Part shown: in pieces, positions 2,752 through 35,886 of the stretch
Numbering within the stretch: the first letter of the stretch is position 1
How the letters are laid out: the number at the start of each line of letters is the position of its first letter
Source: a virus
Length of the DNA stretch: 36,660 nt
Reading direction: 5' to 3' (one strand)
IMG/VR virus record: IMGVR_UViG_3300032294_000821
Coordinates: 1 to 36,660 of that record
Notes under the pieces: model-generated
Told to the model about the DNA's origin: nothing
What the model saw: the letters and a program-made list of their open reading frames with translations, nothing else
Databases searched by the model: none
Made by a program: the position numbers and the translations under genes

Positions 2752-3208
2752 GCTTTCTAAGTATTGTGATGAGGTGTGGTGACGACCACTCCTGATGTTC
2801 CACGTGAAACTTTCCCTTAAAACCGTACATCTTAGCTAGGCATCCTCCAGCAAAGTACATCGGGAATGTTTCCTCAGTAATGATGTTTACATGGGTTGGG
2901 TCACGAAACGCTGGCGAATGTGGATAGGCTGGAGTAAACGAGTACAGGCTACCATCCGACTTTAGCACCCGATAAATCTCATTCATCAGTTCTACAAAAG
3001 CAAAGCGTGGTTTACGGTCTAAGTAGATAACCCGTGGGATATGCTCAAGAAAGTCATAAGCACTAATGTAGTCCACGGAATTATCGTCATAAGGTATTGG
3101 CTCAATGGCTAAGTCAATGCCTGAACGCAAGTCAAAGCCATGAACCTCATCCGCATTAAATGGATTGCGTGGATTGGTTCCGCATCCTAGGTCAAGCGAG
3201 ATGGTCAT
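2741..3208 (-). CDS. Class I SAM-dependent methyltransferase
   Basis: From the ATG at 3208 the product is 155 residues. It has the SAM-binding motif I LDLGCGTNP (residues 5-13), an acidic loop GFDLRSG, and AYDFLEHIP followed by a YRVLKSDGSLYSFTP block, all typical of class I (methyltransferase type 11-like) enzymes. The substrate cannot be read off. The start is set by the ATGA overlap with the stop of the glycosyltransferase upstream, so the two are co-translated and probably act on the same product, such as a glycan. An in-frame codon further upstream would add 20 residues with no ribosome site. This is the last gene of the leftward block. Confidence 0.85.
   Translation of the reverse strand: MTISLDLGCGTNPRNPFNADEVHGFDLRSGIDLAIEPIPYDDNSVDYISAYDFLEHIPRVIYLDRKPRFAFVELMNEIYRVLKSDGSLYSFTPAYPHSPAFRDPTHVNIITEETFPMYFAGGCLAKMYGFKGKFHVEHQEWSSPHLITILRKPID
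2772..2793 (+). other. Stem-loop at the convergent gene junction
   Basis: AGG-t-GTGGT, loop GACG, ACCAC-t-CCT can form an 8-pair stem with one mismatch, 20 bases past the stop of the last rightward gene. No T-run follows on either strand, so it is not a standard intrinsic terminator. It could still slow or mark the end of the late transcript. It also lies inside the methyltransferase coding sequence, which limits confidence. Confidence 0.35.
2796..2811. promoter_or_regulatory. parS-like near-palindrome
   Basis: TGTTCCACGTGAAACT matches 14 of 16 bases of the chromosomal parS consensus TGTTTCACGTGAAACA, which ParB proteins bind. The site lies inside the methyltransferase coding region near the convergent junction. 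No parA or parB gene was seen in the window. It may be chance or a host-ParB binding site; function is not established. Confidence 0.35.
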
Positions 3209-3981
3209 TGGGTTTGGATTAAGTGTCCATCGAATAGGTATGAACCTAGATGTCCGAGCTGTACCCATGGTGCAGCCCAGACCTTAATGCCATTGTCCCT
3301 AGCTAGTTTGCAGAAGTGGTAGTCCTCTGATAGTAAGCGGTTAGTTCCCGGCTCAATGGAAGTAGTAAAGTACTCTTTGATTTCTTCCTCAACAAGCTGC
3401 TTGTTAATGTCATAGACATCGTTGGTATAGCTAGGAACCTTGTCTGCTAAGTCCTCGAATACCTTACGCTCAATCAACATAAAGCCAGTACCACCATTCC
3501 AAATCTCACATGGCTGGTTAATCGGTACAGTCACCTCGCCCTCATAGCCCACGAGGTTAACTACAAAGGAACCCGTAAAGTTCGATAGGTTTTCTGTTGG
3601 AATACCATGGTCAATGGCAGTCTTAACGGACTTCCAATTAATCTCTTTCTTCGGATAAATGCCACAGATAATCTCTTTCTTGGCAGTAATCATTGGAACA
3701 ATTTGCTCGGGATTGAACTTAATATCCGCATCAATGAACATTAGATGAGTCGCTGGACTCTGCAAGAACTTCTTAGTCAATCCATTCCTAGCCCGTGTAA
3801 TCAAGCTCTCATTGAACATAAAGGAAAAGCTCACATCAATGTCTGCTGAACGGCAAACTTTGATTAAGCTAATGATGGACTGGGTATAAAAGCCAGCACA
3901 CATTCCACCGTACATAGGAGTAGCTACAAAGATGTGTGGCTTCTCAGCGTTTTTTCTGTCTTCTGTTATAAATGTTGTCAT
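3205..3981 (-). CDS. GT-A-fold glycosyltransferase
   Basis: This 258-residue protein has the layout of a GT-A nucleotide-sugar transferase. A beta strand IFVATPMYGG lies near the N-terminus, and HLMFIDADIKF (79-89) holds a D-A-D metal-binding motif. Residues about 160-170 contain WNGGTGFMLI, followed by LLSEDYHFCKLARDNG (216-230) and a late His (GHLGSY). Related phage proteins are thought to move sugars onto phage or host molecules, but donor and acceptor cannot be told here. A TAGGGAT ribosome site precedes the ATG. The gene overlaps the methyltransferase by ATGA. A second, unrelated-looking glycosyltransferase plus methyltransferase pair lies at 12806-14118. Confidence 0.85.
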   Translation of the reverse strand: MTTFITEDRKNAEKPHIFVATPMYGGMCAGFYTQSIISLIKVCRSADIDVSFSFMFNESLITRARNGLTKKFLQSPATHLMFIDADIKFNPEQIVPMITAKKEIICGIYPKKEINWKSVKTAIDHGIPTENLSNFTGSFVVNLVGYEGEVTVPINQPCEIWNGGTGFMLIERKVFEDLADKVPSYTNDVYDINKQLVEEEIKEYFTTSIEPGTNRLLSEDYHFCKLARDNGIKVWAAPWVQLGHLGSYLFDGHLIQTQ

Positions 3982-11065: not shown

Positions 11066-12813
11066 AGCAGTTCTACAAGTTCTGCTCGGAACTGAAAATC
11101 GAGACCAAAGAGCAAGGCTTACGGAAAATGGATACATTACTAGGTACGCAGACCTATGTAATGGACGAAATTGCGAAAGGATTAGCCGATGATGTCCACT
11201 TCTTCGTTATTCTTAAAGGGCGACAGCTGGGTATTACCACTATTTCGCTTGCGCTTGACTTGTATTGGCACTTCCTCAACCCGGGGCTGCAAGGAACTCT
11301 TACTACAGATACAGAAGAAAACCGAGATATGTTCCGCTCAACTCTCTCCATGTACATGGAGGGCTTACCAAAAGAATTTAGAATCCCATTACTCGCTCAC
11401 AACCGAAATCAGCTTTCCCTCAAAAACCGCAGCAGACTCTTTTATCAAGTGGCTGGACTCAGAGCGAAAGGCTCACTCGGTCGAGGTAAAGCTATCACCT
11501 ATTTGCACGGAACTGAAACAAGTTCTTGGGGAGACGAAGAAGGACTAGCTTCCTTGCTGGCTTCTCTAGCAGAGAACAACCCCATGCGGATGTACCTCTT
11601 TGAGAGTACCGCCCGTGGGTTCAATATGTTCCACGATATGTACACCACGGCTAAACGGGCTAAGACCCAACGGGCTATCTTTTGTGGCTGGTGGCGCAAC
11701 CAGTTTTACCAAGCCGACCCAGACTCCGACATCTACAAAGTCTATTGGGATGGAAAGCTAAGTCCTGAAGAAAAAGAATGGACAAAAGAGATTAAGAAGC
11801 TCTACAACTTTGAAATTAATTCCCGCCAAATGGCGTGGTGGCGTTGGAAGCTACACGAAGGCATTAAGGACGATGGGCTGATGTACCAAGAGTTTCCACC
11901 GACGGAAGACTACGCTTTTGTGATGACGGGAACCAGCTTCTTTTCAACCAACCGTTGTACGGAAGCAGCCAAGGTAGCCAAAGCTAAACAACCCGACTTT
12001 TATCGTTTTTCCATGGGAGCTAACTTTGAAGACACGGTACTACTCAAGAGCACGGAACGCATGGCAACGTTGTCCATTTGGGAGGAGCCGGTGGACACTG
12101 CTTATTACGTTATTGGTGCTGACCCCGCTTATGGCTCTAGTGATTGGGCTGACCGCCATTGCATACAAGTGTACCGTTGCTATGCTGACGGTTTGGACCA
12201 AGTTGCGGAATTTGCTACGTCGGAGTTAAACACCTACCAGTTTGCGTGGGTTATCTGTTACCTAGCGGGGGCGTACAAGAACTCAACCCTAAACTTGGAA
12301 GTCAATGGTCCAGGTCAAGCTGTCATTAACGAGATACGGAACTTAAAGCGCTATGCGACTGCAATGGGCGACCAGCGTGGAAAAGACTTGTACGCAGTGT
12401 TAGCACACATGCAAAACTACATTTGGAGGCGCAATGATTCATTTGGTGGCTGGTCTAATTCTCTAGGATGGGTGACGACCTCCGCCTCAAAAGAGCGGAT
12501 GCTCTCCTACATGAAGGACTTTTTTGAGCGTGGCATGATGAATGTGTTTTCCATGGATTGCTTAGAAGAAATGAAGTCCGTGGTTCGTGAAGGTGGCGTA
12601 ATTGCTGCCATGGGGCGTAACAAAGATGACCGTGTCATTGCAAGTGCTTTAGCGACAGCTGCCTTTGCAGAGCAAGTGCAACCACGCTTGATTAACCAAC
12701 GGGTTACTCGGATGACCAATAAACCCTTAGATAACTTAGACCCAGAGCAGATAGCCGTCGGTAAAAATGTAGCCAACTACTTAAAGCGCATTGGGATGTA
12801 CGGCAATGCCTAG
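11050..12813 (+). CDS. terL: Terminase large subunit
   Basis: The 587-residue protein carries an ATPase domain with the Walker A variant KGRQLGITT (56-64), a Walker B-like strand ITYLHGTE ending at Glu156, and the coupling motif FESTARG (184-190). A nuclease domain of RNase H type follows, with Asp358 in VIGADPAYG, Glu417 in LNLEVNG and Asp526/527 in DDRVIASALA. It cuts concatemeric DNA and drives it into the prohead through the portal. The Walker B acidic pair reads H-G-T-E, a variant found in some podovirus terminases. It overlaps small genes on both sides. Confidence 0.95.
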   Translation: MDFNLKQFYKFCSELKIETKEQGLRKMDTLLGTQTYVMDEIAKGLADDVHFFVILKGRQLGITTISLALDLYWHFLNPGLQGTLTTDTEENRDMFRSTLSMYMEGLPKEFRIPLLAHNRNQLSLKNRSRLFYQVAGLRAKGSLGRGKAITYLHGTETSSWGDEEGLASLLASLAENNPMRMYLFESTARGFNMFHDMYTTAKRAKTQRAIFCGWWRNQFYQADPDSDIYKVYWDGKLSPEEKEWTKEIKKLYNFEINSRQMAWWRWKLHEGIKDDGLMYQEFPPTEDYAFVMTGTSFFSTNRCTEAAKVAKAKQPDFYRFSMGANFEDTVLLKSTERMATLSIWEEPVDTAYYVIGADPAYGSSDWADRHCIQVYRCYADGLDQVAEFATSELNTYQFAWVICYLAGAYKNSTLNLEVNGPGQAVINEIRNLKRYATAMGDQRGKDLYAVLAHMQNYIWRRNDSFGGWSNSLGWVTTSASKERMLSYMKDFFERGMMNVFSMDCLEEMKSVVREGGVIAAMGRNKDDRVIASALATAAFAEQVQPRLINQRVTRMTNKPLDNLDPEQIAVGKNVANYLKRIGMYGNA

Positions 12814-13615
12814 TTTTAAAGACATTACCGTAGTCGCCATTCACGGCAATGGTGGCATTGAGCGTGAGATTCCAAGCCTGATGCACAGTCTTAGGGCATT
12901 ACCCGGTTCTCAGGGTTTGATTGTGACGGATAAGTTAGTAGATACTAACATTAGACAAATTGAGTTAGTCCAAGGTTTTGACTACATTGGATTCCAAGAC
13001 TATTTGATGTATTGCTTATTCCAGCACATTGAAACCGACTACGCTTTAATCGTCCAGTCAGACGGATGGGTGCTCAACGCTGATAACTGGCGCAACGAAT
13101 GGTTTGATTACGATTACATTGGCGGATATACCCACGCAGCATGGTCGCCTAAAGACAGTACCTTTCGGATGTATTACTCATGGGTTGGCATGGAAGACCA
13201 AGTGGTTGTACAAAACGGTGGGTTTTCCCTAAGAAGCCGACGTTTCCTAGAAGCCCCAACCAAATATGGAATTGTTAAACATTCTAAGGAACATCCCACC
13301 TTAAACAACGAGGACATTCAACTTTGTTGTTGGATGCGTGAGCCATTAGAACAAGTAGGTATGAAATTTGCACCAAGAGAGGAGTCCATGCTCTTTTCTT
13401 TTGAGCATTTGTCCCCCATATTGCATAAGGACATTGATTTACACAAAGTATTCGGGCATCACAGCCGTTTTCGCAGACTCACCGGGGAGTTAAAAATGAA
13501 CTGGGAGATGCCCGAAGAAATGTTCCATCAAATCCAATGGGAAGACCGGGTGTACGCCCTTTTCCAACATTACGGATACGATATATGTCACACCCAGCCC
13601 AACAAGATTTTATAA
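12806..13615 (+). CDS. DUF5672-like glycosyltransferase
   Basis: From the ATG at 12806 the product has 269 residues. It contains LIVQSDGWVLNADNW (81-95), FDYDYIGGY (100-108) and QNGGFSLRSRRFL (136-148), the pattern of DUF5672 proteins, which are GT-A-like sugar transferases found in glycan clusters and some phages. The S-D-G takes the place of the usual D-x-D. The gene starts inside the end of terL and overlaps the methyltransferase gene that follows, so the pair is made together. Its acceptor is unknown: virion protein, host surface glycan or DNA base are all possible. Confidence 0.8.
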   Translation: MPSFKDITVVAIHGNGGIEREIPSLMHSLRALPGSQGLIVTDKLVDTNIRQIELVQGFDYIGFQDYLMYCLFQHIETDYALIVQSDGWVLNADNWRNEWFDYDYIGGYTHAAWSPKDSTFRMYYSWVGMEDQVVVQNGGFSLRSRRFLEAPTKYGIVKHSKEHPTLNNEDIQLCCWMREPLEQVGMKFAPREESMLFSFEHLSPILHKDIDLHKVFGHHSRFRRLTGELKMNWEMPEEMFHQIQWEDRVYALFQHYGYDICHTQPNKIL

Positions 13616-14118
13616 AGTCTGTCCAACAAGTTTTCTTTGAGTACTTTATTAACACCAAAGTACTAGAGGTTGGCTCGCTAAATATCAACGGCACAGTCCG
13701 AGATTACTTTACAAACCCCGTCAAATACGTGGGTTGCGACTTGGGTGCTGGTCCGGGCGTAGATATTATCTCCAAGGCGCATGAGCTACCGTATGAAAAC
13801 GGTATATTTGACATTGCCGTTTCATGTAACTGTTTTGAGCATGATGAGCATTGGCAGCAAAGTTTTCAGAAAATGTACGACCTCTTGCGACCAGACGGAT
13901 TGTTGGTTTTTTCATGCGCTAGTACCGACACGCCAGAACACGGCACAACGGCAACCAGCCCAGAAGACGCTCCGTTTACCAATGACTATTACAAAAACCT
14001 AGTCCAAGAGGACTTCTCTAGCGTTTTTAACTTGCCAGCAATGTTCCATAACTTTAAGTTTCCAAATCCAGAGCAAAAGCGGGATTTATTCTTTTGGGGG
14101 CAAAAATGCAAAGAGTAA
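13585..14118 (+). CDS. Class I SAM-dependent methyltransferase
   Basis: From the ATG at 13585 the product has 177 residues. Motif I is KVLEVGSLNINGTVR (25-39), followed by VKYVGCDLGAGPGVD, FDIAVSCNCFEHDEHW and YDLLRPDGLLVFSC, typical of class I methyltransferases that act on small molecules or sugars. It has little likeness to the methyltransferase at 2741-3208 beyond the fold. The start codon lies 31 bases inside the glycosyltransferase gene, and the pair sits between terL and portal, an uncommon place for such genes. Confidence 0.85.
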   Translation: MSHPAQQDFIKSVQQVFFEYFINTKVLEVGSLNINGTVRDYFTNPVKYVGCDLGAGPGVDIISKAHELPYENGIFDIAVSCNCFEHDEHWQQSFQKMYDLLRPDGLLVFSCASTDTPEHGTTATSPEDAPFTNDYYKNLVQEDFSSVFNLPAMFHNFKFPNPEQKRDLFFWGQKCKE

Positions 14119-23399: not shown

Positions 23400-23729
23400 A
23401 TGGGAATTAATGCGTTCACAAAAACTGGCAACACGGTCGTTTTTACGGCAAGTACGACTGCTCCAGCTGCCGTCCAAGCTGTTTCCTCTACTCTAGGTGG
23501 AAACCAGTACCGGGTCGTTAATGCTGGAACGGTTACAGTTTTTCTAGGTTATGGCACAACGGTTGCCGCCGCTAATGCTGCAGCTACTATAGTGACCAGC
23601 TCTCAAGAGTCTTTCCCGCTACTATCTGGAACTGATGAGATTTTAAGTTTTGTGCCTAATGCGTACTTTACTGGTATTACTGCTGCGGGTAATGCAGTGG
23701 TTTACATTACTCCCGGAGATGGTTTGTAG
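23400..23729 (+). CDS. Small beta-rich tail-region protein, paralogue of the 440-787 product
   Basis: The 109-residue protein shares its whole layout with the product of 440-787: GNTV, NQYRVVN, VFLGYGTT and the end AGNAVVYITPGDGL. It lies among tail-fibre genes, between the fibre protein and the HNH gene. The two copies differ through much of their length, so the duplication is old. It may be a fibre-tip or decoration subunit. Confidence 0.7.
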   Translation: MGINAFTKTGNTVVFTASTTAPAAVQAVSSTLGGNQYRVVNAGTVTVFLGYGTTVAAANAAATIVTSSQESFPLLSGTDEILSFVPNAYFTGITAAGNAVVYITPGDGL

Positions 23730-23753: not shown

Positions 23754-23782
23754 TCATATAACTTTCTGGGAGAGTTATATGA
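23754..23782 (+). promoter_or_regulatory. Hairpin covering the start codon of the HNH gene
   Basis: TCATATAACT (23754-23763) pairs perfectly with AGTTATATGA (23773-23782) around a 9-base loop TTCTGGGAG. The ATG of the HNH gene (23779-23781) lies in the 3' arm and the GGGAG ribosome site in the loop. Folding would hide the start codon when the gene is read through from upstream. Start-region hairpins are known to limit the translation of phage homing endonucleases such as I-TevI. Confidence 0.7.
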
Positions 23783-24237
23783 AAGTTTGTGTAATTTGCA
23801 AAGAATTAAAACCTTTAGATTTTTATTACAAAGGTTATGCAAGGTGTAAAAGCTGTAGATATGAATGGACTAAAAAATATAGACAGTCAGAAAAGGGTAA
23901 GGAAGTAAGAAAAAAGGAAGCTATTAACGCAAGATTGCAAGGAAAAAAACAGATAAGGCAGAAGCGTTATGAACAAACTGAAAAGGGAAAGTTGCAACAA
24001 AAAAAGTATGATTTAAAAAGATATGGGAGTCCTGAAGGAAAAGCTAGACTAGCTGCAAAAAATGCTGTTAGATATGCTTTGAGAGTGGGAAAATTAGTTA
24101 AACAGCCGTGTTGGATTTGTGGAGAAAATATGTCAGAAGCGCATCATCCATCTTATGCACCAGATATGAGATTAGCAGTTTCTTGGCTATGCTCTTTTCA
24201 CCACAACCAAATTCACAATGTTCCACACAGTTTATAA
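23779..24237 (+). CDS. Free-standing HNH endonuclease (homing-type)
   Basis: This 152-residue basic protein has a zinc finger of Cys4, Cys7, Cys23 and Cys26 at the N-terminus and a Lys-rich helical middle. The HNH core contains CWICG (111-115), EAHHPSYAPD (120-129) and WLCSFHHNQIHN (136-147). It probably nicks or cuts DNA at a site in related phages. It interrupts the tail-fibre gene series and is A-rich with many AGA codons and Lys, unlike its neighbours, which points to recent mobile entry. A hairpin covers its start codon. Confidence 0.88.
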   Translation: MKVCVICKELKPLDFYYKGYARCKSCRYEWTKKYRQSEKGKEVRKKEAINARLQGKKQIRQKRYEQTEKGKLQQKKYDLKRYGSPEGKARLAAKNAVRYALRVGKLVKQPCWICGENMSEAHHPSYAPDMRLAVSWLCSFHHNQIHNVPHSL

Positions 24238-28344: not shown

Positions 28345-28677
28345 ATGGAGACGCTGAGTATTGTAGAGTTTGGCAACGTAGAGTCGCTAAACGAGTTTTT
28401 ATTTGAAAATGGGGTTCAGCATTACCTTTTTTGGGAAACCCTAGCCGACTCTGACATCGTTTATCCCAAATATCCAATTACTGATGCTTATATTGAAAAC
28501 CTAGACGATTGGTTACTTGCTCATCAGCAAGAACATCAGGCTTTAGCCTTCAATCTAGGGCTTTCTGACCCCTTTAATATGCTCGATGTGGACTTTAATT
28601 CCGAGCAAGATTTTTATGACTGGTTGGGCACTCATCTGACGATTCACGAACAGATAGCGTCCGCCCTCGGATTATAA
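28345..28677 (+). CDS. Conserved-type phage protein with HxxxH helices (110 aa)
   Basis: An acidic 110-residue protein with two helical repeats: DDWLLAHQQEHQALAFNLGL near residue 53 and FYDWLGTHLTIHEQIASALGL at the end. It looks like a small phage protein seen downstream of tail genes in related phages, with no function assigned that I know. His-x3-His spacing could bind a metal, but this is weak. Confidence 0.65.
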   Translation: METLSIVEFGNVESLNEFLFENGVQHYLFWETLADSDIVYPKYPITDAYIENLDDWLLAHQQEHQALAFNLGLSDPFNMLDVDFNSEQDFYDWLGTHLTIHEQIASALGL

Positions 28678-28713: not shown

Positions 28714-28995
28714 ATGGACCAAGTAGCACTTTTTAATGAGGTACTCATACTAGCTAGACCAGCTGCCGGAGATGAAGTAAAGGCAACCAGTCTGGATGAT
28801 GAGTTTTATAACATTGGCGTAGATAGCCTAGATGTCACCATGATTGTTTCGTATATGTCAGAAATATACGGAATTAGCAGTGAAAAAGCTATGTCGTTTA
28901 GTCCTAAGACTGTTGGTCAGCTCTTTGACTGCATCGACAAAGTAAAGACTAAAGACCCACAAACCGTTGAAGAAGCGTTAAGTGGTGTCAAATGA
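28714..28995 (+). CDS. Acyl carrier protein (phage-encoded)
   Basis: The 93-residue protein has the ACP signature: an acidic, helical domain with FYNIGVDSLDVTMIVSYMSEIYG and Ser38 in D-S-L, the serine that receives 4'-phosphopantetheine. ACPs carry growing acyl chains on the thioester arm and hand them to synthases and transferases in the cytoplasm. An acidic fourth helix is followed by an extra C-terminal tail (about 12 residues). The start has AAAAAGGGGATTGT before it. The stop overlaps the start of the ketoacyl synthase gene by ATGA, so the two are made in step. The host phosphopantetheinyl transferase would be needed to activate it. Confidence 0.9.
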   Translation: MDQVALFNEVLILARPAAGDEVKATSLDDEFYNIGVDSLDVTMIVSYMSEIYGISSEKAMSFSPKTVGQLFDCIDKVKTKDPQTVEEALSGVK

Positions 28996-30119
28996 AAATC
29001 TACCTAACCCAATACAGAACCGTATGCTCACGGGAAACTACGGTATTTACAGACGTTGTTTATCCACAACGAGTCCACTTAATTACTCAGTCTATGGCAA
29101 AAATCCATACTGGCTTTTCTTATGTTCCCCATGAGGTAGCCAATATGGTCATTACTAAAGACTTAATTCAATACGTCAAAAACAATCCAGTAGAAGGAAA
29201 GACTGGATTCTTGCTAGCTGGTGGCTCTCAAGGATGGGCTGGCGGTAAGTCAAAAGAAATGGATAAGCCAAGCCAGTCTTTAGACTATACCTTCAAGCTA
29301 GGCGTTTTAAGCATGACCAATATCTATGCTGGACGTATTGCTTCGGTCTTTGAAGCCTATGATTACGTAGCTACAGACGCTTCTGCGTGCGCTACTGGGA
29401 TTAAGTCCATGATGGATGTTAGGAACTTAATAGATTATATGGGTTTTGATAGAGTCATTGTTCTAGCCTTAGAAGACCAAGTGTCTAAATTAACCCTTGA
29501 GTTTTTTGGACAAGCAAAAGCCAATTTGCTTTTAAAAGATGAGGAAGCGGGGTCAATTCCTAGCGCTTTTGACAGTAAAAACCAAGGTTTTATTTTGGGA
29601 CAGGGGGCTGCTATTGCCATTTTTGAATCCGCTTCCGCCGTGGAAAAAAATTCCATAAATCCGAAAGCAGAGCTTTGCAGTGCTTGGGTCTCAGCCGAAA
29701 GATGCTCCAATCCAATCGGTCAAAGAGAAGACGGAGAGGGCTATCAACGGGCTATTCAAGGCGCTTTGCAAATGGCTAAAGTAAAACCAGAAGACATAAG
29801 GATTATTAAGACCCATGGCACTGGAACTAAAACTAATAATCAGTCAGAGAAAACAGCGATTACGACTATTTTTGACGATTTCATTGCAACGTCTTATAAA
29901 CAACATATTGGTCATACGGTGGCTGCTAGCGGACTTTTGGAAACTTGCCTAATGATTGACGACATTAATTCTGGAGTAATCCCAGCAATTAAGAACAGAA
30001 CAGAATCAGATGACAAGTTTCTATCAAAAGAGGAAAATGCACCTGAAGGCTTAATGTTGAGTTTAGCTGCTGGAATGGGTAATATATATGCAGCTGCAAT
30101 CCTAGATACGAGGGTGTAA
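28992..30119 (+). CDS. Beta-ketoacyl-ACP synthase-like enzyme (KAS I/II family)
   Basis: This 375-residue thiolase-fold protein keeps the catalytic triad: Cys133 in DASACATG, His275 in KTHGTGT and His308 in KQHIGHTVAASG, with Lys303 ahead of the last. GFILGQGAAIAIFE (199-212) matches the G-x-G-A-A block of FabF-like enzymes, and the end reads GMGNIYAAAIL in place of the usual GFGGTN. Such enzymes condense malonyl-ACP with an acyl chain in fatty-acid or polyketide synthesis. It is shorter than FabF (about 412 residues) and clearly divergent. It overlaps the ACP gene and lies in the late virion operon, with no reductase, dehydratase or malonyl transferase nearby. Confidence 0.9.
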   Translation: MKIYLTQYRTVCSRETTVFTDVVYPQRVHLITQSMAKIHTGFSYVPHEVANMVITKDLIQYVKNNPVEGKTGFLLAGGSQGWAGGKSKEMDKPSQSLDYTFKLGVLSMTNIYAGRIASVFEAYDYVATDASACATGIKSMMDVRNLIDYMGFDRVIVLALEDQVSKLTLEFFGQAKANLLLKDEEAGSIPSAFDSKNQGFILGQGAAIAIFESASAVEKNSINPKAELCSAWVSAERCSNPIGQREDGEGYQRAIQGALQMAKVKPEDIRIIKTHGTGTKTNNQSEKTAITTIFDDFIATSYKQHIGHTVAASGLLETCLMIDDINSGVIPAIKNRTESDDKFLSKEENAPEGLMLSLAAGMGNIYAAAILDTRV

Positions 30120-30569
30120 ATGTTAGTTGACAGCAAAACCAAAAAGTTAACCGTTCCTGAGATTGTTGCAATTGCAACAAAACAGACTAAATCTCAGTAT
30201 TCGCCAGCTGCGGTTCTTGCTAGTGTATATGAGGAGCTAAAACAACCACAAACTTATAGCATTATTGAAGGAAATACATTATTTGTTATTCACAAAGGCA
30301 AAGGTCGCAATGGAATGTTCCGTGCTTTAAACGCTGACACTCCACAAAATTACTTAAATAACTCTTTGGTTTTTTCTAGCGCTGCTTATAAATTGGGTTT
30401 TGACAATCTAATTACACAATTTAGGGACAAATCATTATTAAACATTTTTAGATTTGTTGAAAAAAACAGTAGTGAAGTAAATCCAAATATGGGATTTAAT
30501 GTTCGAAAAGCAGAGAATGGGGACTTTGTTGTATCAATTAAGTTAGGACCTGAAAGGGCTGGTGAATAA
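30120..30569 (+). CDS. Unknown late protein next to the ACP-KAS pair (149 aa)
   Basis: The 149-residue protein contains KLTVPEIVAIATKQTKSQYSP, FRALNADTPQNYLNNS, FDNLITQFRDKSLLNIFRFV and a C-terminal strand pair (GFNVRKAENGDFVVSIKLG). I associate the FRALNADT block with an uncharacterised phage family encoded before ejection-protein genes, but I cannot give it a function. The ATG directly follows the KAS stop, and its stop overlaps the next ATG, so it could belong to either the ACP module or the ejection genes. No acyltransferase motif is clear. Confidence 0.6.
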   Translation: MLVDSKTKKLTVPEIVAIATKQTKSQYSPAAVLASVYEELKQPQTYSIIEGNTLFVIHKGKGRNGMFRALNADTPQNYLNNSLVFSSAAYKLGFDNLITQFRDKSLLNIFRFVEKNSSEVNPNMGFNVRKAENGDFVVSIKLGPERAGE

Positions 30570-32044
30570 TGGGTGCAGTAGTAGAAGTCATAAGCAACGC
30601 TGTTTCCGATGTAGTTGAGGCTGCCGGCGACGTCGTTTCTGATGTTGGGCAAGCCGTTGAAAGCGTTGGTCAAACCGTTGGTAATATTGCACAAGCCGTT
30701 GCTAATGACCCATTGCCAGTGCTTGTATCTATTGCTGCTGCCCCAGTATTGGGACCAGCTGCTGTTGCCGTTGGTTTGCCTTCCGCTGTAGTTGCCCCAT
30801 TAACGGCTGCTGCCATTTCTGCCGCTCAAGGCAATTCGATTGAAGAAATTGCTTTATCTGCAGCCTCATCGTTTGTAGGCGGTCAAGTTGCTGGACAAGT
30901 AGCTAGTGCACTACCATCTGATGTTGCACAAGTAGTATCAGACATTGTTCCTAGCGCCGCTCAAGGTGCTGCACAAGCAGCAATTACTGGACAAGACCCA
31001 TTATTAGCTGCTTTAGGAAGTGGTATTGCTGGCGGAGTTGCTGGACAAGTTACTCCCGAATTAGGTCAAACTACTGGAACGATTGCTGGACAAGCTGCTG
31101 GAACGGCTGCCACTGGTGGAAATGTGGCTCAAGCAGTTGGCAGTGGTTTAGCTGGAGCTGCTATTGGTGAAGTTTCTGGAGCTTTAGGAGGCGCATTTGG
31201 TGGCGGTCAAGCACCAGCTCCTACAGATGTTGCTCAAGCAGAACAGCCAGAAGGTCAGTCTATGGATGAAATCTTGGCTGGAATGATTACTGAAGAAATG
31301 AATCAGCCATCTACACCATCGCCATATGCTCCACTTGCTGCTGGAGGAGCTGTATCTGATGTTTCTCCAACACCATTAGTACCAACAGGAACGGTTACTA
31401 CAGAATTTGTATCTCCCCCTACTCCAGTAGATGCGTTAGGTGGTGGAGAAGGAATTGCATTAGAGGATTTGCCAGAATTGCCAGAAGATACTAGTCAAGC
31501 TTATACCCCTCCAATATCTCAGGGGGCGCAGCAAGCATTTGATGTTGCACAAGGATATGCTGGAGGAACCCCTCCAATATCCGCTGGTCCAGTAACACAG
31601 CCTTCTACACAAGCTCCGACAATGGGTGGCGGTGGTATTAGTCCTCAAGACCAAGACTTGCTTGATTTAATCAATGCTGTTGAGGGCAGTCAGGGAACGC
31701 AGCCAAGCGCACCGTCTGGAACTGCAGTTAGCGGTGAAAGCATGGGAGTTACTGAAACGCCAACAGTTACAGAAGAAGATACAGAATTTGTTGATACTGG
31801 TCCAAAAGAGCCGGGAGAGCAGTTGCCAGCAGAAGGCGGAGTATCTACCGTAACCGTAATGGGTCCAGCTGCCACTCCAGTTAGAACAAGACGTGCTGGC
31901 TTTGCACCATCGGACAGTACTCTAAGCGCATTACTTGGAACTTCTTTATCTGAAGGGGCTGCAGAGCCAATTATGGGTGAAGACGAAAGTAAACGCAGAG
32001 CAGTTTGGAACATTGAATCTTTGAGAAACGCACTAGGAATCTAA
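30569..32044 (+). CDS. Gly/Ala-rich hydrophobic ejection (internal virion) protein (491 aa)
   Basis: The first 215 residues are Ala/Gly/Val-rich with many small-residue zippers (GSGIAGGVAGQV, AGTAATGGNVAQAVGSGLAG) and moderately hydrophobic parts such as PLPVLVSIAAAPVLGPAAVAVGL. The rest is Pro/Thr/Gln-rich and disordered. Such proteins are packed in podovirus heads and are sent into the host envelope during DNA entry. The last residues (ESLRNALGI) resemble the first residues of the next protein (IKNALGI). Position and composition are the only grounds. Confidence 0.65.
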   Translation: MGAVVEVISNAVSDVVEAAGDVVSDVGQAVESVGQTVGNIAQAVANDPLPVLVSIAAAPVLGPAAVAVGLPSAVVAPLTAAAISAAQGNSIEEIALSAASSFVGGQVAGQVASALPSDVAQVVSDIVPSAAQGAAQAAITGQDPLLAALGSGIAGGVAGQVTPELGQTTGTIAGQAAGTAATGGNVAQAVGSGLAGAAIGEVSGALGGAFGGGQAPAPTDVAQAEQPEGQSMDEILAGMITEEMNQPSTPSPYAPLAAGGAVSDVSPTPLVPTGTVTTEFVSPPTPVDALGGGEGIALEDLPELPEDTSQAYTPPISQGAQQAFDVAQGYAGGTPPISAGPVTQPSTQAPTMGGGGISPQDQDLLDLINAVEGSQGTQPSAPSGTAVSGESMGVTETPTVTEEDTEFVDTGPKEPGEQLPAEGGVSTVTVMGPAATPVRTRRAGFAPSDSTLSALLGTSLSEGAAEPIMGEDESKRRAVWNIESLRNALGI

Positions 32045-32045
32045 T

Positions 32046-33047
32046 ATGCCTAACATTAAAAATGCACTTGGAATAGACATGGCTGGGTTAGCCCAGTTAA
32101 TTCGCTCTCAAGGGCGTGGACGAGATACAGTTCTAGCGCACATTACCCCAAGAGAAGCTGCTTTATTAAAAGCTGCTGGAGGTTCTGGAACAACAAACCC
32201 CGTTACTGGCTTGCCTGAGTTTCAAGAAGAATTTGGTCCTACTTATGAGGAATTGGGTTATACGCCACCAGCATTTGAAGCTCCTGAAATTGATTACAGT
32301 GCGTATGCAGCTGCAACCCAACCAATGGCTGCTCCAGTAGAGCAATTTGACTTTAGCCAAATGGACATCGGTTTTGGACCCGGACAATTTCAACCGCCTA
32401 CCGCCCCCCAAGAAATTCAAGGAATGGGACCAGAGCAATTTGCTGGATTTGCTCCGCCCGTGACTCCATCCGAACTAGCTGCCACAACTCGACCGTCATT
32501 TTTAGAGCGTGGTGCAGAAGCCGTTAAAGAAAGACTTGGCAGAACTAAACTAGAAGACGTATTGCGTGTCGGTGGAATGGCTGGCTTGGGAGCTTTAGGA
32601 GCAACACGCAGCCGTCAAGGGCAACAACAAGCGGCTCAACTGCAATCTCAATTACAAAGTATGGCTGCTCCATACTATCAAACTGGTCAAGAGTATATTC
32701 AGCGTGGACAAACTGGAGCGTTACTACCAGCTCAACAGCAACAATTACAAGCTATGAGAGCGCAAGCCCGTCAGCAACAGGCTAGGGCTGGAACGACTAC
32801 TGGCACTATGGCTGCTCAATCTGAAGCCGCCATTGCTCGTCAATCTGACCTATTCCGTCAACAGTTAGTTGATTACGGATTTAAACTTACTGGTATTGGT
32901 GACCAAATTACTAAAGGCGCTATCCAAGCTGGTTACTCTGCAAGTCAAGATGCTCAAAACGCCGCTTCACAGTTTTATCGTGCAATGGCTTTAATGATTC
33001 CGGGTATTGGGTCAGAGGGTCAATCTGAAACAAAAGGTAAAAAATAA
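32046..33047 (+). CDS. Ejection/internal virion protein with GRGRDT-HITPREAAL motif (333 aa)
   Basis: Residues about 22-63 hold QGRGRDTVLAHITPREAALL and GGSGTTNPVTGLPEF, a recurring motif of phage internal or tail-associated proteins. A Pro-rich linker follows, then Gln/Ala-rich helices (QQQAAQLQSQLQSMAAPYY; QQQLQAMRAQARQQQARAG). That make-up fits a helical ejection protein of a short-tailed phage. The next gene starts on its stop codon (TAATG). The exact role is not known. Confidence 0.7.
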   Translation: MPNIKNALGIDMAGLAQLIRSQGRGRDTVLAHITPREAALLKAAGGSGTTNPVTGLPEFQEEFGPTYEELGYTPPAFEAPEIDYSAYAAATQPMAAPVEQFDFSQMDIGFGPGQFQPPTAPQEIQGMGPEQFAGFAPPVTPSELAATTRPSFLERGAEAVKERLGRTKLEDVLRVGGMAGLGALGATRSRQGQQQAAQLQSQLQSMAAPYYQTGQEYIQRGQTGALLPAQQQQLQAMRAQARQQQARAGTTTGTMAAQSEAAIARQSDLFRQQLVDYGFKLTGIGDQITKGAIQAGYSASQDAQNAASQFYRAMALMIPGIGSEGQSETKGKK

Positions 33048-34159
33048 TGGCTGAACCGACTGAAAATATACAAGTTACAGAAATGATGGAAAGCGTTCCA
33101 TCAGATTTGCAGTCTGCTATGGGAATGCGTGAACAAGCTGGACAAGAGTTTGCCGCTGAACGTGAAACAAAGCTTAAAGAACGGGCTACCGAAGAAATAG
33201 GCATACGCTCTGACTATGCTAAAAAAAGAGAAGAAGCTGTAAAAAAATATGAGGGTGAGGCGCTACCTCCAGACGCTTTTGTTCCTAGTAAGGAAACTGC
33301 TGGTGACTTAACTGGCTTATTTTCTACTGTTGCTCTTGCTACATTTTTGGGAGGTTCTGGTCAATATAGCGGTATTGCTGCGCTAAAAAATATGTCTGGA
33401 GCCATGGAAGGCTATCGCAAAGGTCGCAAGGATTTGTTTGACCGTGAAATGCGTCAATTTGAAAAAAATTTAAAAGTTCAACTTGAAACAAATAGGCTTT
33501 TGTCGGAAAAGCTAACTAGAACATTAGATACATTTTCTAAAAATAGAGATGATGCCCTAACTCAATTAAAGCTAATTGATGCTGAATTAGAAGGTGGAAA
33601 AATTAAATATGATGTTCGCTCTAAAAACATTGATGGAATTATTAAGTACATTAATGATGAAAGAGCGTCTGAAAGAGCCATAAATAAAACATTGGCTGCA
33701 CTAAAAGCAAAAAGCGAAATAGCTGAAAATAACCTCTCTCCTTCTGAACGCAAAGAAAAGCGTGGTGTTGAGAACCTTGAATACGCAGTAGATGAGTTAA
33801 GAAGAACGTTTAAACCTGAGTTTGCAAACATGAAGTTTGATACTTTAGGTCAAGGCAAAGCTTTCTTTGAAGAGCGTATTCGTAATAACCCTGAGATGGC
33901 TGAGTGGTGGAGGCGTTATGAAAATGTTGCCTTACCAGAACGTCATGCAATGTTCGGGGCAACCCTAACTGGTGGTGAAAGAGAGTCTTGGAGAAGGGCG
34001 TCTATTGGACCGGGTAACTCTACAACGTCTATTCAAAGTTGGCTTAATGATAAAACTTCTATGTTAGATAGAAAGAAAAGCCAGTTTAAGAATTTAAATA
34101 CTAGCCGTAATCAAGTTGGCAATGAAGTTGACCCACTAGATATTATGAGTCCGAGGTAA
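33047..34159 (+). CDS. Helical internal virion protein (370 aa)
   Basis: A 370-residue highly charged helical protein. A coiled-coil start (EQAGQEFAAERETKLKERAT) is followed by a short hydrophobic Gly-rich segment around 87-110 (LTGLFSTVALATFLGGSG) and long helices (RKDLFDREMRQFEKNLKVQL). It lies between two other ejection-protein candidates. Together they could form the trans-envelope channel for DNA, as the three ejection proteins do in P22 and T7. No enzymatic motif is seen. Confidence 0.65.
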   Translation: MAEPTENIQVTEMMESVPSDLQSAMGMREQAGQEFAAERETKLKERATEEIGIRSDYAKKREEAVKKYEGEALPPDAFVPSKETAGDLTGLFSTVALATFLGGSGQYSGIAALKNMSGAMEGYRKGRKDLFDREMRQFEKNLKVQLETNRLLSEKLTRTLDTFSKNRDDALTQLKLIDAELEGGKIKYDVRSKNIDGIIKYINDERASERAINKTLAALKAKSEIAENNLSPSERKEKRGVENLEYAVDELRRTFKPEFANMKFDTLGQGKAFFEERIRNNPEMAEWWRRYENVALPERHAMFGATLTGGERESWRRASIGPGNSTTSIQSWLNDKTSMLDRKKSQFKNLNTSRNQVGNEVDPLDIMSPR

Positions 34160-34161
34160 GC

Positions 34162-35886
34162 ATGGCAACATTAGATGATGTAAGACGCAAGTTTCCTCAA
34201 TACGCAAACTACAATGACGAGGCTTTAGCTGCTGCCGTATGGAATCAGCACTACAAAGATAGGCTCCCATTTGAAGAGTTTTCTCGTAGGATTGGCTATA
34301 CAACTGGTCAAATTCCTAGGGAAGCTCCTCCAGCAATGCCAGAAGACCCAACTAAAACAGATATTGTTTCTGATGCTGGCGGTCTTTTTGAAAGAATTAT
34401 GCAGAATGTTCAAGCAGTTCCTATTGTCGGTGGTGCTGCTGGCGCTATTTCTGCGTTATCTCGATTACCGGGAGCAAGCAAACTAGGTCGTGCTTTAGGG
34501 CAGGCTGCAGAGATTGTTAAACCAAGAACAGGCGGTCAGCTTGCTCGTCAAACTACCGCTGCTGCGGCACTAGCTCCAGTCGGTTTTGCTGGAGAGCAAT
34601 TAGCAGAACCGGCGGCTAGAGCTATTGGAGAAGTTTTGCCATTGCCTGAAGTTCGTGGCGAAGCTGGTCAACGGCAACTAGCAGAGGCATTACGTGTTCC
34701 ATTAGGTGTTGGTGCAGAGATTGGCGCTACAAGGCTTGGGGTTGGCGCAACTACGGCAGCACAAAGAAAATTAGCGCAAAGACCCGCTGGAGTTCCAGAA
34801 GAAAGGTTAGAGGCTGCAAGAAGCCTTAAAAGACAAGGTGGAGCATTGCCATCAAGCCAGTTATTGCGTGGTTCTGAGATTTCTAAAAACATGGAAGTCT
34901 TTAATAAAAGGTATAACTCATTGGTTGGAAATCCTGAATCTACAACTTTTGGAACTAAAGAGTTTGTAAACGCATTAAATAAACTCAAGTCAGACTACAA
35001 CACTTTGCTGTCAGGTAAAAAGGTTGTATTTGATGACCAGTTTTTTAATGACATTGGAGCGTTATTAGATAAGCAACGTAGCCTAGCATCTACAGGCGTA
35101 ATGTTTGCTGAGTCACGCCCAATTATTAATACCTTATCTCAAATCAAGCAGTTACCACAGGATTTACAGAATAGAATCAATTCCTTGCGTGATATTCCTG
35201 AAACCACTCAAGATATTAATGTAACTCAAAACGCATTAAAAGTAATTGATGATGCCCTTGGCTTCCTATCAACTAACCGTATTGAAATGGACGCTCCAAT
35301 CTATAACGAGCTTCGTTCTCAACTTGGTAGTTCAGCCTATCGCACAGGCGACCCTGAAAGGGCAAAAGTTCTTAGAAATATGCAAAAAGCATTTGATGAT
35401 GCAGCAGACCGCTCGTTACCAGAAGACGTTGTTGAAGGATTAAAAACAACCCGTAATCGTTGGGAAAACTTAAAAATCCTAGAAGAAGCTCAAAAGAAGT
35501 CAGAACCCGGTCTTATCTTGCCACAAACCATTGGACAAGTAGTTCGTGGTCGCTATGACAAAGGCGTTATTTATGGCGATAAAGAGATTTTTGACATTGG
35601 CGAGCAAGGTTTATCTTTAGGAATTAAGCCTTCTGGAGCCGGTCCTGAGTTTGATGTTCAACAAGTATTGCCAACTCAAGTTGGTGGTTATCGTCAAAAA
35701 GTTGGTATTGCTGAACGTGGCACTCGTGCCGTTACAGAACCAATAAAAGCGAAAGCAATGATGGCTGGTCCTAGAACTGAGGAGCAAGTTTTACGCAGAG
35801 AAGTTCCTCAAGAGGTCAGGGCAGCTGGTCAAGGTATTGAAGAACTAATGCAAGAAGACGCAACAGCCGAGTTTCAAAAGGAGTAA
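34162..35886 (+). CDS. Large internal virion/ejection protein (574 aa)
   Basis: The N-terminus ([22 protein letters not shown], then [11 protein letters not shown]) matches a short domain that begins many phage internal or tail proteins. A small hydrophobic/Ala-Gly region follows at about 85-200 ([20 protein letters not shown]), and the remainder is helical ([20 protein letters not shown]). No lysozyme or protease motif could be seen. As the last of four consecutive internal-protein candidates it probably enters the host with the DNA. An AAGCATGG context gives it a modest ribosome site. Confidence 0.7.

Follow-up and report, generated by a model that had tools for sequence, protein, structure and literature searches.

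The window, a virus record of 36.7 kb (36,660 nucleotides), carries beside its ejection genes a run of three genes encoding an acyl carrier protein (ACP), a beta-ketoacyl synthase (KAS) of a virus-only clade and a protein with the GNAT fold. The linkage of these three genes as a module is well supported, and with this linkage in hand they are best read as one functional, horizontally moving phage cassette. The module suggests that virion proteins of the phage are modified by it with groups resembling fatty acids, and an acylation cassette acting on an ejection protein is the best explanation and our leading hypothesis, one that we put at somewhat less than an even chance. The genes concerned are as follows.

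28345..28677, + strand: upstream flanking gene, 110 aa, bounding the module on its left; retained at 67-71% identity by the sister phages without ACP, KAS and GNAT
28714..28995, + strand: ACP, 93 aa, attachment Ser38 in DSLD; PF00550 above cut-off
28992..30119, + strand: virus-clade KAS, 375 aa, Cys133-His275-Lys303-His308; PF00109/PF02801
30120..30569, + strand: GNAT-fold putative acyltransferase, 149 aa, beginning right after the KAS stop codon; AlphaFold2 model
30569..32044, + strand: ejection-block protein o491, which begins within the GNAT stop (TAATG); candidate acylation target: the amphipathic domain at its N-terminus, about residues 1-120
32046..35886, + strand: remaining presumed ejection block, proteins of 333, 370 and 574 aa, assigned by synteny

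The ACP and KAS genes are both open frames and share an ATGA overlap, as a sequence-only reading of this DNA had described, and the ACP with a D-S-L attachment serine (Ser38) that the same reading recognized was likewise borne out: PF00550 scores above the Pfam cut-off (E=4e-5, 24.2 bits against 20.8), and D37-S38-L39-D40 is present. The serine is kept in the family. DSLD occurs in 150 of the 152 clustered ACP relatives, the other two having DSLG and DSMD, with D-S in 152/152. The only viral locus that lacks an ACP, L127, lies on a contig starting about 100 bases before KAS, and an ACP with DSL is found at every remaining locus having sufficient upstream DNA. The window ACP shares 39% identity with that of MW202545. 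Having both a score above the Pfam cut-off and the DSL serine, it is assigned to the PP-binding proteins, and its phosphopantetheinylation is predicted.

Domains, fold and catalytic residues place the KAS in the beta-ketoacyl-ACP synthase superfamily, and condensing activity is predicted for it. It matches PF02801 (E=2e-19) and PF00109 (E=3e-9), both above cut-off, and its structure model (pLDDT 91.4) finds FabF as the best Foldseek matches (TMq about 0.8, best E 2e-23). The Cys133-His275-His308 triad, previously noted as apparently intact, is confirmed and is accompanied by Lys303, which aligns with the active-site lysine of FabF; all four residues are invariant in 83/83 viral loci, and since none of them was part of the search patterns, this invariance was not selected for. 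FabF and FabB (KAS I/II) thus have the same fold, Cys-His-His and Lys as the phage enzyme, whereas identity in structure alignments is about 17-21%, the N-terminal part of the phage protein is shortened, the DAYH loop is replaced by E-x-x-x-N-x-x-G-Q, and GFGGTN is replaced by GMGN(I/V)Y. This last feature had been regarded as a truncated end. However, it is common to 83/83 viral relatives, a count that is in part due to selection, since one of the two patterns searched for was this very motif, and it is a mark of the clade and no truncation; the protein is short mainly by about 30-40 residues missing after the first strand, relative to FabF. The score against the FabF equivalog TIGR03150 (NCBIfam) is 126 bits, against a cut-off of 493.75, the GFGGTN gate is absent, and the protein falls far below every NCBIfam KAS equivalog cut-off. 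An unnamed cluster, phrog_35856, matches KAS residues 3-324 (E=5e-40), and neither a function nor an ACP/GNAT context is recorded for it.

It had also been stated that no other fatty-acid gene is nearby, which overlooks the adjacent GNAT-fold gene at 30120-30569. Its product has no sequence match in Pfam, PHROG or PDB, and a single-protein scan with it gave three close relatives. In the AlphaFold2 model based on 58 relatives (pLDDT 95.9, pTM 0.89), the order of strands and helices is that of the GNAT fold, and GNAT acetyltransferases make up the 49 best matches among PDB structures (TM mostly 0.44-0.58, best E=3e-4). The fold is secure and the acyltransferase function putative. We assign the product to the GNAT fold only, and not to the CoA-using acetyltransferases, because the CoA loop [QR]-x-x-G-x-[GA] is absent; [RK]-A-x-N-x-D stands at that position, a replacement that may point to acyl-ACP or some other donor in place of acetyl-CoA. 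D73 is invariant in the 58 sequences and His58 is found in 48 of them, to be compared with the His/Asp dyad of HlyC/CdiC by residue type. A role as a malonyl-ACP decarboxylase like MadA was considered and dropped, as decarboxylation by MadA belongs to its hot-dog domain and not to its GNAT domain (PMC8666670).

The pair and its synteny recur widely in phage genomes. A single-protein scan of IMG/VR with KAS gave one close relative, a three-sequence profile gave 519 contigs, and a wider profile gave at least 566 contigs with KAS relatives. For linkage, 146 KAS loci with enough downstream DNA were used, some of them from the same contig, so that the counts are not fully independent. KAS stands in a virion context at 125 of these, and GNAT lies within 1.6 kb in 125/125. 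The other 21 loci have an early-region context after an SNF2-type helicase (seen in 19, the other two, from a contig without the helicase, being placed by downstream genes), and none has an adjacent GNAT. When loci were selected by GNAT instead, the best 80 contained KAS in 80/80 and ACP in 75/80, the five without ACP sitting near contig ends; the profile came from a subset alignment seeded throughout with KAS-linked sequences, and with retention limited to the 80 top-scoring loci, GNATs that are more distant and lack KAS could be missed. On one 33.9 kb contig (G002), ACP-KAS is in the early region and GNAT still stands directly before the ejection-block gene in the virion block. Another contig (L007, also G001) carries ACP-KAS-FabZ and was rejected as a GNAT-less counterexample, as it ends before the tail/ejection block. 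At L020:8097-8753, KAS and GNAT are separated by an inserted 218-aa gene that matches nothing in Pfam.

The sequence-only reading was right that the genes do not make up a full pathway. Neither FabG, FabD nor AcpS was found in 34 records, and a complete fatty-acid pathway was rejected; the one further fatty-acid gene seen alongside the module is a FabZ-like dehydratase (PF07977, E=6e-30) directly 3′ of ACP-KAS on two early-region contigs (L007:8130-8561 and L006 near 4201).

The family is viral and under constraint. In a tree with 33 cellular KAS sequences, the 34 viral rows form one group with support 100/100, the stem of which is about 5 changes per column long, in line with the long independent descent proposed earlier; the cellular side of the tree is a limited sample, mostly Desulfobacterota plus E. 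coli. Among 84,980 bacterial and archaeal genomes scanned, there is one close KAS relative, 48% identical, which a Balneolaceae MAG carries on a contig of 37.6 kb. This contig is probably a phage, because it shares small structural and tail genes, and also gene order, with the window, and bacterial contamination is ruled out as the source of the window genes. Apart from MW202545, the KAS matches in the phage collection have 23-31% identity, come mostly from unannotated records and resemble cellular KAS. The dN/dS of KAS does not exceed 0.115 in 25 pairs and is mostly 0.04-0.09 (0.086 for the window against L002), three pairs being saturated at synonymous sites. Together with the residue invariance in 83/83 loci, this rules out decay or chance for ACP-KAS; the relatives are intact and not decayed remnants.

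The nearest named phages by capsid and terminase, MW202753 and MW202825 (MCP 87-88%, TerL 76-78%), have no ACP, KAS or GNAT in profile searches of their sequence. In MW202825, the gene for an ejection-block protein starts one base after the 110-aa gene; this protein is unrelated to window o491 at its N-terminus but matches it over 35 residues at its C-terminus (E=6e-4). Conversely, when the window is compared with module contigs of other lineages, L164 being set aside as a nearer relative, matches recur for ACP, KAS and GNAT and, on some contigs, for the N-terminal portion of o491, and nothing else matches except, now and then, a VanY-like peptidase; a number of these contigs are incomplete, and missing capsid genes there say little. 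MW202545 (41 kb including the capsid) has no match to the capsid, portal or terminase of the window.

Several genes outside the module were noted in passing. The small proteins at 440-787 and 23400-23729 have similar C-termini (AGNAVVYVTPGEGL and AGNAVVYITPGDGL) and are apparently paralogous virion genes, with like ones in L002 and L164. By eye, glycosyltransferase-like and SAM-methyltransferase-like genes lie between terminase and portal at 12791-14118, the place where sister MW202825 has an annotated methyltransferase, and a possible HNH-type endonuclease lies amid the tail genes at 23779-24237. In MW202753.1, a long ejection-protein-like open frame ending VWNVASLK... occupies a gap in the deposited annotation (about 3058-3888).

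The placement of ACP-KAS between tail and ejection genes, recognized from the beginning, is correct. The first protein after GNAT is not firmly placed in any family. The gene that comes second after GNAT in relatives matches the PHROG family 'DNA ejection protein' (E=5e-7) and later genes match endolysin families, and the ejection block of MW202545 includes a transglycosylase SLT domain. The similarity of o491 across loci is N-terminal: 108 of about 136 matches start within residue 10, and none lies in the last 90 residues. Since a low-complexity filter reduces the matches from 137 to 30, the link between the module and the N-terminal domain of o491 is suggestive and not firm. The o491-type N-terminus is amphipathic. 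Two thirds of the distinct sequences are free of lysine up to residue 30, and Gly, Ser or Ala occupies position 2 in 97% of 108 members, a weak signal because another family of the block shows it too.

Acylation of a virion protein was one option of the sequence-only reading and is the one favoured here, with the GNAT gene suggesting the most specific mechanism. The donor, chain and target that we infer would act as follows. Host AcpS would add phosphopantetheine to the phage ACP to give holo-ACP, on which KAS would condense host-derived acyl and malonyl units, the latter from host malonyl-ACP; host FabG, FabZ and FabI would complete the chain. The GNAT protein would then take the acyl group from ACP and place it on an amine, for which the N-terminal residue (Gly2, Ser2 or Ala2) of the amphipathic domain of the ejection protein is the likeliest candidate; that the target lies at the o491 N-terminus is guessed from the order of the genes. 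Once acylated, the protein would go into the virion and, as the DNA is ejected, enter the host membrane by means of the chain. A widespread mobile phage system of this kind, a dedicated viral pathway of protein lipidation in which a chain made or selected on its own ACP-KAS is covalently attached to the ejection-protein N-terminus and helps DNA to cross the bacterial membrane, is a fuller claim that we advance more tentatively still. There are precedents in HlyC, CyaC and CdiC, which use acyl-ACP to acylate delivered proteins (PMC8510554). HlyC/RTX and class IV CdiC/CdiA, in which the acyltransferase activates the toxin, share the proposed logic of an acyl-ACP donor and an acyltransferase gene beside the delivered target; in contrast to the phage module, they use the host ACP, have no KAS of their own and modify lysine, and there is no sequence match between them and the GNAT protein, which sits in phages.

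The strongest competitor, which we consider unlikely, is that these are auxiliary genes of lipid metabolism: ACP-KAS would boost or redirect host fatty-acid synthesis for membrane remodelling, lysis or assembly lipids, and the GNAT-fold protein would be a mere neighbouring assembly factor. Studies of prophages and viromes report fab genes as auxiliary genes (PMC8224337, PMC10653327). Rhodobacteraceae prophages carry fabG-acpP-fabF, with ACP followed by KAS in a phage context as here, but the order is of host type with fabG and no GNAT/virion triplet is described, a distinction drawn from the published description (PMC8224337). The 21 loci with ACP-KAS elsewhere in the genome and the FabZ-like gene adjoining ACP-KAS in L006 and L007 also speak for such a role, and so does gene order. 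The arrangement of tail, small gene and ejection genes in the window is like that of P22 (10-26-14-7-20-16) and T7 (12-13-14-15-16), where gp14 (DUF2824) and gp13 hold the same slot as GNAT, directly before the ejection genes, and GNAT-fold proteins in that slot could be assembly factors. A DUF2824 protein is even among the structural neighbours of GNAT (TMq 0.51). However, P22 and T7 have no ACP-KAS at this place, and sequence homology of GNAT to gp14 or gp13 was not detected (hhalign probability below 1%, the profiles compared against being shallow, with 3 and 5 sequences). The all-or-none loss in the sister phages and the linkage in 125/125 and 80/80 loci likewise argue against a chance neighbour.

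Somewhat less likely again is a small-molecule product, whereby KAS would extend a chain on ACP and the GNAT protein would acylate an amino acid or another amine to produce an N-acyl lipid or signal, as do FeeM/FeeL and LuxI. FeeM/FeeL combine an ACP with a GNAT-fold protein taking an acyl-ACP donor, a pairing that the phage genes resemble. The use of acyl-ACP by GNAT-fold LuxI-type synthases (PMC8188788, PMC4234381), including AhyI (PMC8188788), is also as proposed here. Neither LuxI nor FeeM/FeeL is among the 50 best structure matches listed for the phage protein, however, and the phage gene lies in the virion block, directly before the ejection-block gene, and co-varies with the N-terminus of that protein. 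The early-region ACP-KAS copies and the FabZ-like neighbour fit an enzymatic role, and they would also fit a lipid or small-molecule product.

That the ACP, KAS and GNAT folds serve as structural or chaperone parts without catalysis is very improbable: they are encoded in the virion block, and the small GNAT-fold protein occupies an assembly-factor slot, but without catalysis the KAS active-site Cys, His, His and Lys would hardly be invariant, nor the ACP serine retained, and early-region copies exist. Least probable is a drain by which ACP-KAS consumes or decarboxylates malonyl-ACP and halts host lipid synthesis, since, although KAS enzymes can decarboxylate malonyl-ACP and part of the family is placed in the early region, most loci are in late virion operons and the GNAT linkage is tight.

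No description of the ACP-KAS-GNAT triplet was found in the open-access literature. Taken singly, the parts are all of known fold or family, and the combination would be new if acylation were demonstrated. Hundreds of uncultured environmental phages share the virus-only KAS and its ACP, with the GNAT-fold gene in most loci. If the cassette acylates the ejection protein, short-tailed phages would thereby have a new means of getting through the membrane, and the role of the small proteins encoded before the ejection genes in P22 and T7 would become testable. If the product is instead a lipid or a signal, the module would still be a conserved viral unit of acyl metabolism with its own carrier protein.
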